A stretch of DNA of 6,095 nucleotides from Halanaerobiales bacterium (GTDB lineage: Bacteria > Bacillota_F > Halanaerobiia > Halanaerobiales > DTU029), in the NCBI GenBank assembly GCA_016278415.1, contig JADQBV010000012.1, positions 1-6,095 of the forward strand, given 5' to 3'. The translations under genes and the position numbers were made by a program. Below, piece after piece: positions 1 through 6,095 of the stretch; the stretch's first letter is position 1, and every line of letters begins with the position of its first letter. The notes under the pieces are model-generated. The model did no database searches and was not told the origin of the DNA. It saw only the letters and a list, made by a program, of their open reading frames with translations.

Positions 1-137
1 TGTATAGTGCTTTAATGAACCAGGATATGTATGTTACAGGTAGTTTTGTTCTTATGTTAAGTACTCTGACTATTATTGGTACTTTAATTTCTGATATTTC
101 TTTAGCTATTGTCGATCCTAGAATTCGATTTGAGTAA
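1..137 (+). CDS. DppB-type ABC transporter permease, C-terminal fragment (5' end outside window)
   Basis: This is the last 44 codons of an inner-membrane permease; the reading frame begins at base 3 and ends at TAA 135-137. The visible peptide has a last hydrophobic membrane segment (about SFVLMLSTLTIIGTLISDIS) and the ending LAIVDPRIRF-E. The D-P-R-I-R-F/Y ending is characteristic of DppB/OppB permeases of the peptide/opine/nickel ABC importer family. In such importers DppB pairs with DppC to form the channel. The gene lies 22 bases before a DppC-type permease, the usual B-C order, so both are almost certainly co-transcribed. Only the tail is present, so nothing can be said about its start, promoter or substrate. 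The family call is secure because of the ending and the neighbour. Confidence 0.9.
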   Translation, partial: YSALMNQDMYVTGSFVLMLSTLTIIGTLISDISLAIVDPRIRFE

Positions 138-159: not shown

Positions 160-1293
160 ATGAATGAGCTAACAATTAACAAAGATTCTGCTGAAATAAA
201 TTTAAAAGAGGATAAAGCTGTAGCTAGAACCCAGTGGCAATTGATCTGGAAACAATTTAAAAGACATAAATTGGCTATTGTAGGTTTGATTATTTTAGTA
301 ATAATGTACTTTATTGGTGTATTATTTCCGGCATTTGTAGCACCTTATGGTAAGTTTACAGAATTTGATTATACATATCTACCACCACATAAATTACATT
401 TTATAGATGAAGAAGGAAATTTTCATTTACGCCCTTTTATATACAATTCTACTCAGAAAATGGATCCAGATACCTGGGAGATGATTTATACCCCTGATAC
501 TAGCAGAATGTATCCAATTAGATTTTTTGTTCGGGGAGTTGAATATAAATTATGGGGTTTATTTAAGACTGATCTTCATTTTTTTGGGGTTGATCAGGGT
601 GGTAATATTAATCTCTTTGGTACAGATTCCCTTGGCCGTGATTTGTTTAGCAGGGTTATTTATGCAGCCCGGATCTCTTTAACTATTGGTTTATTGGGGG
701 TTTTTATTAGTCTCTTTTTAGGGCTGATTTTTGGTGGTATTTCTGGTTTAGTAGGCGGCTTAGTCGATGATATTATACAGCGTGTGATTGAAATGCTAAT
801 GTCTATTCCTCAAATTCCACTATGGATGGCTCTGGCGGCAGCTATTCCACAGGACTGGGAGGCTATTAAAGTCTATTTTGGAATTACTATAATTCTTTCC
901 TTGATGGGCTGGACCGGACTGGCTCGTGTTGTCAGAAGTAAATTTATTTCATTGAGGGAAGAAGATTTTGTAAATGCAGCTATTGCCTTTAATGCTTCTA
1001 AATTAACTATTATATTTAGACATTTAGTACCTAATTTCTTGAGTTATTTAATAGTTAGTATTACCCTGGCTATTCCCGGGATGATTCTTGGAGAAACTTC
1101 ATTAAGTTTTCTTGGTATTGGACTTAGAGCTCCTGTAGTAAGTTTAGGGGTTTTGTTAAATGAAGCTCAGAGCTTTCAAACAGTAAGTATGTATCCCTGG
1201 TTATTAATTCCCGGAATTTTTGTGGTTATTGTTGTTTTAGCATATAATTTTGTAGGAGATGGTTTAAGAGATGCAGCAGATCCTTATAAATAA
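160..1293 (+). CDS. DppC-type ABC transporter permease with long external loop
   Basis: Inner-membrane permease of 377 residues, partner of the preceding DppB-type protein. A cytoplasmic N-terminus with W-x-x-x-x-K-x-F-K-R-H-K-L-A (about 30-39) leads into the first membrane segment (about 39-60). An external stretch of roughly 90 residues (about 61-151) follows, then the hallmark NLFGTDSLGRDLFSR (151-165). Further membrane segments lie near 174-195, 205-228, 238-257, 292-312 and 345-366. The ATPase-contacting EAA loop is at about 268-291 (DFVNAAIAFNASK...HLVPN). The C-terminus FVGDGLRDAADPYK is typical of the family. It is longer than the roughly 300 residues usual for DppC because of the external loop, a form I associate with importers that use very large binding proteins. 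The start is ATG 160, with AAAGGGG about seven bases upstream. The substrate cannot be read from this gene. Confidence 0.95.
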   Translation: MNELTINKDSAEINLKEDKAVARTQWQLIWKQFKRHKLAIVGLIILVIMYFIGVLFPAFVAPYGKFTEFDYTYLPPHKLHFIDEEGNFHLRPFIYNSTQKMDPDTWEMIYTPDTSRMYPIRFFVRGVEYKLWGLFKTDLHFFGVDQGGNINLFGTDSLGRDLFSRVIYAARISLTIGLLGVFISLFLGLIFGGISGLVGGLVDDIIQRVIEMLMSIPQIPLWMALAAAIPQDWEAIKVYFGITIILSLMGWTGLARVVRSKFISLREEDFVNAAIAFNASKLTIIFRHLVPNFLSYLIVSITLAIPGMILGETSLSFLGIGLRAPVVSLGVLLNEAQSFQTVSMYPWLLIPGIFVVIVVLAYNFVGDGLRDAADPYK

Positions 1294-1314: not shown

Positions 1315-2325
1315 ATGGAAAATGATAATAATTTGATAGATATATCGGATTTGAGAACCTATTTTCGTACCGAAGAGGGGATTGTTAAAGCTGTTGATGG
1401 TGTCTCTTTCAATATTAAACAGGGTGAAACCCTTGGTATAGTCGGAGAAAGTGGTTGTGGGAAAAGTGTTACTTCACTTTCAATTATGCAGTTAGTTCCT
1501 CAACCAAGGGGTAGAATTGAAAGTGGGAAAATACTTTTTAATGAAAATGATGGGACTTCTGTGGATATTACTCAATTAAAACCTCATGGAGAAAAAATCA
1601 GGAGGATCCGGGGTAATGAAATTGCTATGATCTTTCAGGAACCCATGACATCCTTGAATCCTGTGTATACTGTTGGGGAACAAATAATGGAGTCAGTCAG
1701 GCTTCACCAGAACCTGGATAATGAAGCAGCTAGAGAACGAGCAATTGAGATGTTAGAATTGGTAGGCATCTCTGCACCCAGGCGGAGGGTAGATGCTTAT
1801 CCGCATGAGTTTAGCGGTGGTATGAGGCAGAGAGCGATGATAGCTATGGCCCTTTCCTGTAACCCGTGTCTGTTAATCGCTGATGAACCTACTACTGCTC
1901 TTGATGTAACTATTGAAGCACAGATACTTGAATTAATGAAAGAATTACAGCAGAAATTAAAGATGTCAATTATGTTTATAACACATGATTTAGAGGTAAT
2001 TGGTGAAATGTCTGAACGAGTAATAGTCATGTATGCAGGTAAAGTGGTGGAAAGGGCAACTGTTAAAGATATTTTTTATGATAGTAAACATCCTTATACA
2101 AAGGGTTTGTTAAAATCAATTCCTAAGATTGGAACTAAAAAAACATTAGTACCTATTAAAGGATCTGTACCTGATTTGCATTCTTTACCAAAGGGTTGTC
2201 ATTTTGCTCCCAGGTGTCCATATGAAATGGATGTTTGCGGAAAAAAAGAACCGCCAGTTTCCTTAGTAGGTCCTCATCATGAGGCTAAATGCTGGCTTTA
2301 TGAAACAAAGGAGGAAGTAATTTGA
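1315..2325 (+). CDS. DppD/OppD-type ABC transporter ATP-binding protein
   Basis: Cytoplasmic ATPase of 336 residues that powers the importer, probably as a heterodimer with the next gene product. Visible motifs in order: Walker A GESGCGKS (44-51, Lys50), Q-loop IFQEPMTSLNP (Gln108), signature FSGGMRQR (166-173), Walker B LLIADEP (186-192, Asp190, Glu191), D-loop ALDV (195-198), and switch His224 in THD. The C-terminal oligopeptide/dipeptide extension holds HPYTKGLLKSIP and four cysteines (295, 301, 308, 326) in the C-x5-C-x6-C-x17-C arrangement that binds a [4Fe-4S] cluster in characterised DppD proteins. ATG 1315 follows AAAGGGG (1299-1305) and sits 21 bases after the permease stop. The length is normal and no key residue is missing. 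Its TGA stop overlaps the next gene. Confidence 0.96.
   Translation: MENDNNLIDISDLRTYFRTEEGIVKAVDGVSFNIKQGETLGIVGESGCGKSVTSLSIMQLVPQPRGRIESGKILFNENDGTSVDITQLKPHGEKIRRIRGNEIAMIFQEPMTSLNPVYTVGEQIMESVRLHQNLDNEAARERAIEMLELVGISAPRRRVDAYPHEFSGGMRQRAMIAMALSCNPCLLIADEPTTALDVTIEAQILELMKELQQKLKMSIMFITHDLEVIGEMSERVIVMYAGKVVERATVKDIFYDSKHPYTKGLLKSIPKIGTKKTLVPIKGSVPDLHSLPKGCHFAPRCPYEMDVCGKKEPPVSLVGPHHEAKCWLYETKEEVI
2307..2315 (+). promoter_or_regulatory. Ribosome binding site that decides a TTG start
   Basis: AAAGGAGGA lies inside the end of the DppD-type gene, with six bases before TTG 2322. The TTG and the upstream TGA stop share bases (TTGA), so the two ATPase genes overlap by four bases and are probably translationally coupled. 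The first in-frame ATG (2376, residue 19) would remove conserved N-terminal residues of the ATPase fold and has no comparable site before it. Confidence 0.85.
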
Positions 2326-3362
2326 GTAATGAACAGGTCATCCTCAAAGTAGAGGGATTAAGGAAATATTTCCCTATGCGTAAAGGTGTTTTTCAAAAAG
2401 TAGTTGGCCATGTAAAAGCAGTAGATGGTGTTAACTTTTTCTTAAAAGAAGGAGAAACCCTTGGTTTGGTAGGAGAAAGTGGTTGTGGTAAATCAACTAC
2501 AGGACGCTGTATAAACAAATTAATCCAGCCAACAGCTGGAAAGATTAATTATTATAAAGAGGATAAAGTTATCGATATAAATAAAGCAAATAAGAAAGAA
2601 CTGGCAGAGATCCGTAAAGATATTCAAATTATATTTCAGGACCCCTTTTCTTCCCTTGATTCCAGAATGTCAGTTCGTGATATTATTGCTGAACCCTTAC
2701 GGGTAAATAAAATTGGTAATCGCAGTCAAAGGACAGCAAGGGTAGAGAAATTGTTAGGACGGGTTGGACTTAATAGTTTTCAAATGAATAGATATCCACA
2801 TGAATTTAGTGGTGGTCAGAGACAGAGAATTGGTATTGCCAGGGCTCTTACTTTAAATCCCCGGATTATAATATGTGATGAGCCAGTTTCGGCACTGGAT
2901 GTATCTGTTCAGGCTCAGGTACTTAATTTATTAAAGGAATTACAGAGTGATTTTGAATTCACTTTTCTTTTTATTGCCCATGATTTAAGTGTAGTTGAGC
3001 ATATTAGTGACCGTGTTATGGTAATGTATTTAGGTAAGTTAGTTGAGATTGCTGATGCTGATACTATCTATCAATCTCCATGTCATCCTTATACTGAGGC
3101 ATTGTTAGGATCTATTCCTGTAGGTGATCCTATGTCAGAAAAAAAGAGGATACCTTTTGGAGGCGATGTACCTGACCCTTCAGCCCCACCATCAGGTTGC
3201 TATCTACATCCCCGCTGTCCTTATGCTCAGGATATCTGTAAAAAGAATGAACCAGAATTAAGGAGATTAGGCGATCACTCTGATCATTATTCTGCATGTC
3301 ATTTTGCAGACGAGTTAGATTTGTCAGGTTACAATGAATTGAAAGGCAAATTCAGCGGGTAA
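2322..3362 (+). CDS. DppF/OppF-type ABC transporter ATP-binding protein (TTG start)
   Basis: Second cytoplasmic ATPase of the importer, 346 residues. Visible motifs: N-terminal [13 protein letters not shown] typical of OppF/DppF, Walker A GESGCGKS (51-58, Lys57), Q-loop [14 protein letters not shown] (Gln106), signature [15 protein letters not shown] (162-176), Walker B IIICDEP (182-188, Asp186, Glu187), D-loop ALDVS (191-195) and switch His220 in AHD. The C-terminal extension has [16 protein letters not shown] and cysteines 293, 299, 306 and 326 (C-x5-C-x6-C-x19-C), a probable [4Fe-4S] site like that of its partner. The lysine-rich FPMRKG insert and PFSSLDSRM separate it from the DppD type. 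Translation most likely begins at TTG 2322, overlapping the upstream stop by four bases. All catalytic motifs are intact. Confidence 0.96.
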
Positions 3363-3451: not shown

Positions 3452-5431
3452 ATGATTAAAAAATTTGGATTGTTGTTTACTCTAGTTTTAAGTTTAGTTG
3501 TTTTAGGTGTCTCTGTTTATGCTGAAGGTGCCCTTGACCCTCAAATGCCTGAAAGCTGGGCTGTAGCACCACAGAAGGCTGTAGATTTAGGAATTACAGA
3601 ATTTAATGAATCACCTATGTTAAAAGAGATGGTAGAAAATGGTGAAATACCTACATTAGCGGAACGTTTACCTGAAAATCCCCCGGTTGTAGAGCCTTAT
3701 GAAAAAGTAGGGAAATATGGTGGCACAGTAACCATCTGGAACACTGAATTATCAGGGGGTCAGGAGATCGGTAACTGGACTAGGTTTGGTGGAGGTCGTA
3801 CTATCTATAATGGTTCTGTTGCTCCTTCCTATCTTGAAGGTTGGGAATATTCAAATGATTATAAGGATATCACTATTCAACTTAGAAAAGGTCTTAAATA
3901 TTCTAATGGTAATGTTATGAATGCAGATGATTATTTATATTGGTGGGAACATATTGCTAATAATAGCGACCTCACTGCACAGGATCCCAGTGAATGGGAT
4001 ATACCATTACTTGATGTAGTTAAAAAAGATGACTGGACAGTAGTCTTTAAATATGCAAAACCTAATCCTAAAGTTCATTTTAATTTCAGGTTAGGAATGA
4101 GCCCTGCTCCTTTTGCTATTATTGCTGACAGTGAAGATATGGAAAATTATCATCCTGATTATATAGGAGAAGATAAGGCTCTTCAATTAGCCGAGGAAAA
4201 TGGTTTTAATAATTGGTTTGATTACTATAATAAGGTTGAAGAGGCTGCAAGTCAAGTTCCAGATTTCTCTTTAAGAGGGATACTAAACCCTTATATTCCT
4301 GTAGAAAAAACAGAAACTACAATTATTTTTGAACGTAATCCTTATTATCCTTTTGTAGATACTGAAGGAAATCAGCTACCATATATTGATAGAATCAAAG
4401 TAAGGTTAGCTAATAATAGGGAAATGGCAGCTATGAAAGCAACAACAGGTGAAGCTACTTTTGCTTCTGAACATCTTAATGTGTCTGATATTCCTCTATA
4501 TAAGAGAAATGAAGCAAATGAAAACTATAAAACTTATATTTATCAGCAGCCTTTTGGTTCTGCCTTTGTCTTTTATTTAAACTATACACATGAAGATCCT
4601 GAATATCAGAAAGTCTTCTAGGATGTTAAATTTAGAAGAGCACTTTCTATTTCCATTGATAGAGATAGAATAAATAATAAAGTCTTTTTTGGTAAAGCTG
4701 TACCAAGAGCAGCAACAGTACCTCCAGTAAATGAATACTTTAAACAGGAATATGCAGATGCTTATGCATATTATAATCCAGATGAAGCCAACAAATGGCT
4801 GGATGAAATAGGTATGATTGACACTGACAATGATGGGTATAGAGAAACACCTGGTGGTGAAGAATTTAATCCTACTTTGATTTATACCCAATATGAGCTA
4901 GATCCTACTCCAATTCTAGAATTGCTTAGAGAAGACCTGAAAAAGGTAGGCCTAAAATTGGATATTAAAATGCTTGATTTCTCATTATGGTATGAAAAAT
5001 GGCCTACAAATACTTCTGATATGAGCGGCTGGTCTATGAATGGTGGCCTGGGACTTAGATTTAAATCACTTGACGGCTTATGTGAATTTGCACCAGTTAT
5101 CTATCCTGGTTATGTTCAATGGCCTGAATATGTAAGATGGCATCAAAGTGATGGTGAAAAGGGAACTGAACCACCTGAAGCAATTAAAAAATTGCCAGGT
5201 TGGGCTGAAACTATTGTCGGTTCACCTAATGAAGAAGAAGTTGCAGAAGCAGCAGAAAACTTACTTAGTTCAATGGCTAAGAATCTCTGGGTTATCGGTA
5301 CTGTCGGTTTACCACCTAAACCAATTATTGTTAGTGATAACCTTAAAAATGTACCTACAACTGGTTTCTGGGGTACATCAACAGAATATTCAAGACCATA
5401 TCATACTGACCAATTCTATCTAGATGAGTAG
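3452..5431 (+). CDS. Family 5 extracellular solute-binding protein, interrupted by an in-frame TAG at codon 390
   Basis: Ligand-capturing subunit of the importer; 659 codons if the TAG at 4619-4621 is counted as sense. Residues 1-24 form a Sec signal peptide (MIKK, hydrophobic core, SVYA cut before Glu25) with no lipobox cysteine. A family-typical N-terminal extension follows (about 54-80: SPMLKEMVENGEIPTLAERL, then PENPPVV). The SBP_bac_5 core shows LRKGLKYSNGNVMNADDYLY (144-163) and ERNPYYPFVDTEGNQLPYID (294-313). After the TAG the same frame resumes with DVKFRRALSISIDRDRIN (391-408), a conserved family block, and runs 269 codons to a normal end (NLWVIGTVGLPPKP..., RPYHTDQFYLDE). No frameshift is needed; one base change would restore a complete gene. 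It may be a fresh pseudogene, a recoded gene or a sequence error. Translated conventionally, it yields a 389-residue exported fragment lacking the last 40 percent, unlikely to bind ligand. The ligand is unproven; oligosaccharides are as plausible as peptides. Confidence 0.9.
4619..4621 (+). other. In-frame amber codon inside the binding-protein gene
   Basis: The TAG falls between Phe389 and Asp391, immediately before the conserved D-V-K-F-R-R-A-L-S block. The reading frame is identical on both sides. Related proteins have an ordinary residue just before this D-V-[RK]-F, so TAG replaces one amino acid rather than marking a gene boundary. No ribosome-binding site precedes the next in-frame ATG (4814), so re-initiation would not rescue the second half. 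Confidence 0.9.
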
Positions 5432-5443: not shown

Positions 5444-5452
5444 AATTTAATT

Positions 5453-5497
5453 ATAAACTAAAGTCCAGCCTTTATGGTTGGCTTTAGTTTATTTAAA
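5453..5497 (+). terminator. Intrinsic (Rho-independent) terminator after the transporter operon
   Basis: A long hairpin: left arm 5453-5470 (ATAAACTAAAGTCCAGCC) pairs with right arm 5476-5492 (GGTTGGCTTTAGTTTAT) around a five-base TTTAT loop. The stem is about 17 base pairs, with one bulged T and one G-T pair. The G+C part sits at the top near the loop and T-rich bases follow (TTTAGTTTATTT). It lies 21 bases after the binding-protein stop and should end most transporter transcripts. Whether the following kinase gene relies on readthrough or its own promoter is unclear. Confidence 0.85.
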
Positions 5498-5527
5498 TTG
5501 ATTAAATATACTAGAGGAGCTGAATTT

Positions 5528-6095
5528 ATGGGAATAAAACATATAATTGGAGTTGATATTGGAGGAACCAAATGTGCTATAACTTATAGTCTGGTCAGTT
5601 CCGAAGATGTAGAAATAGTTAGAAAAAAGAAATTCGCTACACTAGGTACAGCTGATGAAACTATAAATAAAATATATGATACTATAGATACAATGAAAGA
5701 GTCTAAAATGGTTGATAATATTGACTGTATCGGGATTAGTTGTGGTGGGCCATTAAATAGTAAGACAGGTATGATCATATCTCCTCCGAATCTTCCCGGC
5801 TGGATTGATATACCAATCGTAAAAATGTTTGAAGAGAGATATAATATCCCATCTGCTATTCAAAATGATGCTAATGCTGGGGCTTTGGCAGAATGGCTCT
5901 GGGGGGCTGGAAAAGGGCTTGATAATATTGTCTTTCTTACATTTGGTACTGGAATGGGTGCCGGGCTTATATTAGATGGAAAGCTTTATGCAGGAACTAA
6001 TGATCTGGCTGGAGAAGTAGGACACATGAGAATTGAAAATAATGGGCCGATTGGTTTTAATAAAAGGGGTTCTTTTGAAGGTTTTTGTAGTGGTG
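5528..6095 (+). CDS. ROK-family sugar kinase (glucokinase-like), N-terminal part; gene runs off the window
   Basis: The first 189 codons of a ROK-family protein, which in this family phosphorylate glucose or related sugars with ATP in the cytoplasm. Visible features: phosphate-binding DIGGTK (10-15), GISCGGPLNSKTG (69-81), PPNLPGW (86-92), catalytic-region QNDANAGALAEW (112-123, with Asp114 the probable base), ATP-site TFGTGMGAGLI (138-148) and AGEVGHM (161-167, His166). There is no N-terminal helix-turn-helix, so it is a kinase type rather than a NagC/XylR-type repressor. The usual zinc motif C-x-C-G-x-x-G-C after the histidine is absent: the sequence reads GPIGFNKRGSFEGFCSG, with no cysteine at the metal positions. 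That suggests a zinc-free ROK subgroup with uncertain sugar specificity. ATG 5528 follows AGAGGAG (5513-5519) at eight bases. It lies after a terminator, in the same direction as the transporter. Confidence 0.93.
   Translation, partial: MGIKHIIGVDIGGTKCAITYSLVSSEDVEIVRKKKFATLGTADETINKIYDTIDTMKESKMVDNIDCIGISCGGPLNSKTGMIISPPNLPGWIDIPIVKMFEERYNIPSAIQNDANAGALAEWLWGAGKGLDNIVFLTFGTGMGAGLILDGKLYAGTNDLAGEVGHMRIENNGPIGFNKRGSFEGFCSG

Follow-up and report, generated by a model that had tools for sequence, protein, structure and literature searches.

Genes that encode pyrrolysine (Pyl) include mtmB, mtbB and mttB. A passage of one review describes Pyl as exclusive to a few methyltransferases (PMC11363022). 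For Acetohalobium arabaticum, sections of PMC3639795 list a verified tRNA-Pyl, assign three methyltransferases, two transposases and a TetR regulator to the known Pyl gene clusters, and mention five other annotated genes with an in-frame UAG, which are not conserved; an excerpt of PMC8318568 likewise cites Pyl use in this organism. A literature search combining pyrrolysine with Halanaerobi returned nothing on Pyl in Halanaerobiales as judged by titles, in the excerpt of PMC6146748 pyrrolysine is named in the reference list only, and a search for literature on in-frame stops in MAGs found nothing. The gene analysed here belongs to a different family, the solute-binding proteins of family 5 (SBP_bac_5, PF00496), and the nearest solved relatives of its product by sequence and fold are the pectin-binding SPH1118 (7ver, 7veq), the alpha-galactoside-binding MelB (6epy) and 5ipw. 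An excerpt of PMC9314435 describes SPH1118 as pectin-binding, and the title of PMC7055323 concerns pectin binding.

We analysed a window of 6,095 nucleotides, meaning the whole stretch of DNA, in which all features described here lie on the + strand. The window opens with the C-terminal end of a preceding gene (1..137), by eye an OppB-type permease, which ends in DPRIRFE and a TAA stop. Unbroken genes follow for an OppC-type permease (160..1293; PF00528 and PF12911), an OppD-type ATP-binding protein (1315..2325; PF00005 and PF08352) and an OppF-type ATP-binding protein (2322..3362; PF00005 and PF08352), the last with a TTG start that overlaps the stop of the OppD gene and with AAAGGAGG upstream. 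The gene for the family 5 solute-binding protein begins at ATG 3452, also with AAAGGAGG upstream, and the N-terminus of its product is hydrophobic and signal-like by eye. A gene for a ROK-family sugar kinase (5528..6094; PF00480) continues past the window end and probably starts at ATG 5528, with GAGGAG upstream, and not at 5474. Between these two genes, a hairpin 3′ of the binding-protein gene (5445..5498; −22.4 kcal/mol, z −7.40, with 0 of 200 shuffles folding as well) contains a terminator-like pattern at 5465-5481 and is probably an intrinsic transcription terminator. The same hairpin overlaps ATG 5474, which is the kinase start in the ORF list. No tRNA genes were found in the window, and its two Rfam matches were both far below their gathering scores.

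The gene order of such loci differs between relatives. In the best named relative (L001:8001-14360), the binding-protein gene stands before oppC, oppD and oppF, whereas in the window it stands after them; a further locus (L010) has the same order as the window. The nearest homologue of the OppC-type permease (74% identity) is labelled Halanaerobiales, and the nearest homologue of the binding protein (64% identity) comes from a MAG labelled Halanaerobiales bacterium. Both labels agree with the host group that the preliminary description had tentatively favoured, and they are the evidence for it.

As had been described, the frame that starts at ATG 3452 and runs to 5431 is broken only by a TAG at codon 390 (4619..4621), which we confirmed by reading the frame. 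The 389 codons before it (3452..4618) and the 269 sense codons after it (4622..5428) share one frame and one family, and the next in-frame stop is the natural terminator of the gene, a TAG at 5429..5431; the nearest homologue has the same last four residues. With the base composition of the window and independent bases, 269 stop-free codons are expected by chance with a probability of 4e-10, and the other two forward frames over the same stretch contain 14 and 47 stops, so that the earlier statement that such a run is improbable by chance stands. The open frame past the TAG is more than chance. GC contents by codon position are alike before (0.49/0.35/0.21) and after the TAG (0.51/0.39/0.20). 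PF00496 is matched independently by the part before the TAG (E 7.8e-25, 88.2 bits, profile positions 2-210) and by the part after it (E 2.6e-27, 96.3 bits, profile positions 215-349), and it becomes a single match when the TAG is read through (E 4.6e-59, 200.8 bits), all three above the curated cut-off of 32.4 bits. The proposed presence of the same family on both sides of the TAG is thereby borne out.

A structure model of the read-through protein was confident (pLDDT 89.5, pTM 0.85) and showed a complete family 5 fold, with 5ipw as its best PDB match and TM scores by query length of 0.76-0.82 against 5ipw and the SPH1118 entries. In the model, residue 390 lies at the end of the helix 383-390, and the next helix starts at 392. 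Given this complete fold, a truncated product would lack a large part of it. The intact protein is of the Opp type and probably binds oligosaccharides, as suggested by its relatives and neighbours. Because a ROK kinase gene adjoins, we consider an oligosaccharide a likelier substrate than a peptide. The likeness of the window's binding protein to pectin- and galactoside-binding family 5 proteins, together with the sugar kinase gene beside its own gene, indicates that the operon probably imports oligosaccharides.

A protein search with the read-through sequence as query scored 7995 candidates, 1322 of which had E ≤ 0.001. From the best 120 we aligned 118, leaving aside the truncated entry of the window itself and a protein of 387 residues that fell below a 400-residue limit. 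Alignment of orthologues at codon 390 had been proposed earlier, and it gave a uniform answer: all 118 aligned homologues (best 120 of 1322) have an amino acid at the TAG column, with no gaps, namely Gln in 48, Arg in 29, Asn in 12, Trp in 10 and others in 19, and the nearest homologue has Gln. The residue has a codon one substitution from TAG in 65 of the 118. None of these 118 sequences ends at the TAG site; two of them, both labelled partial, break off at query residues 418 and 444.

The last result bears on the proposal of a split gene, in which translation would restart past the TAG and yield a second useful polypeptide. An in-frame ATG at 4814 opens 205 codons, but by then the conserved part has already run for 64 codons; no clear ribosome-binding sequence precedes this ATG, and the resulting piece would have no N-terminal signal. 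In addition, no aligned homologue ends at the TAG site. We rejected a restart at 4814 for want of a convincing ribosome-binding sequence and consider a split gene very improbable.

That Gln is the commonest residue at the column (48 of 118) would suit a reassignment of TAG to glutamine or another residue across the code of the organism. The codon counts speak against this, as the five ORFs of the window contain 21 CAA and 31 CAG codons versus one internal TAG. The probability of at most one TAG in 53 codons would be 0.026 if TAG made up 10% of the Gln codons and 0.0001 if it made up 20%; at 5% it would be 0.25, with which rare use is compatible. The nearest homologue also ends where the terminal TAG stands, which is a weak argument because an in-frame TAA comes three sense codons beyond the terminal TAG. 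Altogether, we regard a reassigned code as exceedingly unlikely.

Because the proteins in the database were predicted with stops as ends, a test at the DNA level outweighs the protein test. A genome scan with a single query sequence gave no matches, and a scan with an alignment as query kept 80 of 457 loci, the best of them 40% identical. Across 112 scanned loci, none of the 114 aligned DNA stretches, some of which are the same gene under two locus ids, has a stop at the column or elsewhere. In the class to which the best named relative (L001, genome G001) belongs, 154 matches had E ≤ 1e-60, and none of those listed contains an inner stop. A looser search of 12 genomes of the same order gave 252 matches, and those listed include two with an inner stop, one a TGA and the other a TAG, the latter in a piece of 135 bases at the edge of a contig. 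Interrupted copies therefore do occur in the SBP_bac_5 family.

We also considered the age of the change. Averaged over 108 full-length homologues, the identity amounts to 0.368 for the part before the TAG and 0.383 for the part after it, and the mean ratio of the identity after to that before the TAG is 1.049 for the window versus 1.044 for its intact nearest homologue. Of 39 columns before the TAG that are conserved to at least 90%, the window keeps 34, and of 31 such columns after it, 30. At sites where the window differs from its nearest homologue, the latter keeps the majority residue of the others more often, with 36 versus 20 sites before and 16 versus 8 after the TAG, which is about the same bias in both parts. 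Because conservation after the TAG equals that before it, the data argue against an old pseudogene, and we ruled this candidate out. The undiminished conservation fits a recent mutation, a base-calling error and read-through alike.

Taken together, these results lead us to assign a probability of roughly 0.58 to a reading in which an ordinary ABC importer operon of the Opp type, with genes for a permease, two ATPases and a solute-binding protein, adjoins a ROK sugar kinase and the TAG is a recent nonsense mutation in its otherwise ordinary binding-protein gene. This figure and the wording chosen for the competing readings express judgement and were not computed. According to this reading, one recent substitution would have created a premature amber codon, carried by the organism at large or by a single strain within its population; translation would then end at codon 390 and leave a fragment without 270 of the 659 residues, and the truncated allele would probably be non-functional. 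The biological origin and recency of the stop, like the inactivity of the product, are inferences. Losing a single copy may be tolerated, as relatives have numerous matches in each genome (252 across 12 genomes). Against this reading, the four other genes of the window are uninterrupted, so that the locus shows no general decay. The preliminary description had offered mutation, error and recoding, with a plain mutation as the simplest explanation; the evidence leans to mutation, while the route through pyrrolysine found no support.

A consensus error in sequencing or assembly, with a sense codon at 4619-4621 in the organism itself and a full-length protein made from it, is a serious possibility that we nevertheless hold to be the less probable one. 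A base-calling error fits the results as well as a mutation does, and the reading frame is well preserved on either side of the TAG. The truncated protein is present once in the protein database, on one 6,095-base contig of which the window is probably the whole, and the TAG base thus comes from a single sequence with no independent copy to back it; a search for a second copy of the organism with the part after the TAG returned the window's own ORF at 100% and then matches at 52% and lower. No positive sign of an error was seen, as the other genes are uninterrupted and the TAG at 4619-4621 lies outside any homopolymer.

The open and conserved frame after the TAG, and a model that folds well with a residue at position 390, would also be compatible with read-through, in which a pyrrolysine system or another amber-suppressor tRNA would decode the UAG and give some full-length protein. 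The precedent of A. arabaticum is in its favour, as is a PylS profile match over the cut-off in 22 of 398 genomes sampled from the phylum of G001. The same profile stayed below its cut-off in all 72 genomes from the class of G001 and in all 17 from that of G338, the genome with the best permease match beyond the class of G001; these are the two classes with the best matches found, which may or may not include the window's own or hold the Halanaerobiales, and the completeness of their genomes is unstated. As a control, one of 14 genomes, that of Methanosarcina acetivorans, was over the cut-off. Weak matches under the cut-off occurred in all seven genomes first searched and were not counted; 13 of the 14 control genomes gave matches as well, one of them over the cut-off. 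Even in the 22 PylS-bearing genomes, none of 91 SBP_bac_5 matches (E ≤ 1e-15) has an in-frame stop in the matched stretch.

The comparison with relatives points in the same direction. A UAG at this column is not conserved in orthologues, given that all 118 aligned homologues have an amino acid there and 0 of 114 DNA stretches a stop, and SBP_bac_5 is not a family known to use Pyl. The review passage that restricts Pyl to a few methyltransferases likewise counts against read-through. The binding-protein gene also uses TAG as its own terminator. We rejected a conserved recoding site, as the relatives examined all lack a stop at the column. Although a hairpin is predicted with the TAG in its stem, folding of the RNA around this codon is not unusual; a structured read-through signal was rejected because this fold is barely better than that of shuffles (z −1.62, with 15 of 200 as good) and the Rfam matches are sub-gathering. 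The suggestion of pyrrolysine decoding found no support in these comparisons, and we regard read-through of any kind as improbable. The fuller proposal that the UAG is decoded as pyrrolysine, or as a canonical residue via an amber suppressor, with a full-length binding protein of a sugar importer made only when the suppressor is active, seems to us distinctly improbable as well. If it were true, a transporter gene would join the methylamine methyltransferases as a site of stop-codon read-through; the sense use of UAG in bacteria would then reach into transport, and nutrient uptake would be linked to the activity of a suppressor tRNA.

The likeliest explanation of the TAG is an ordinary one. 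As it stands, the case matters little: a recent mutation, variation between strains or an error in the consensus would readily account for one premature stop in a gene that is otherwise intact and belongs to a large paralogous family. The window's gene resembles the pyrrolysine-encoding genes mtmB, mtbB and mttB in its in-frame UAG with the frame kept after it, and it differs from them in that it does not encode a methyltransferase, its UAG is unconserved, and no pylS match exceeded the cut-off in either class searched. It resembles other SBP_bac_5 (PF00496) genes of Opp-type importers in the family matches of both halves and in the adjacent permease and two ATPase genes, from which it departs by the amber codon at residue 390, unseen at this column in the relatives examined. 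Nothing that we found distinguishes it from recently nonsense-mutated genes, with which it shares a single stop, conservation on both sides of that stop and intact relatives.
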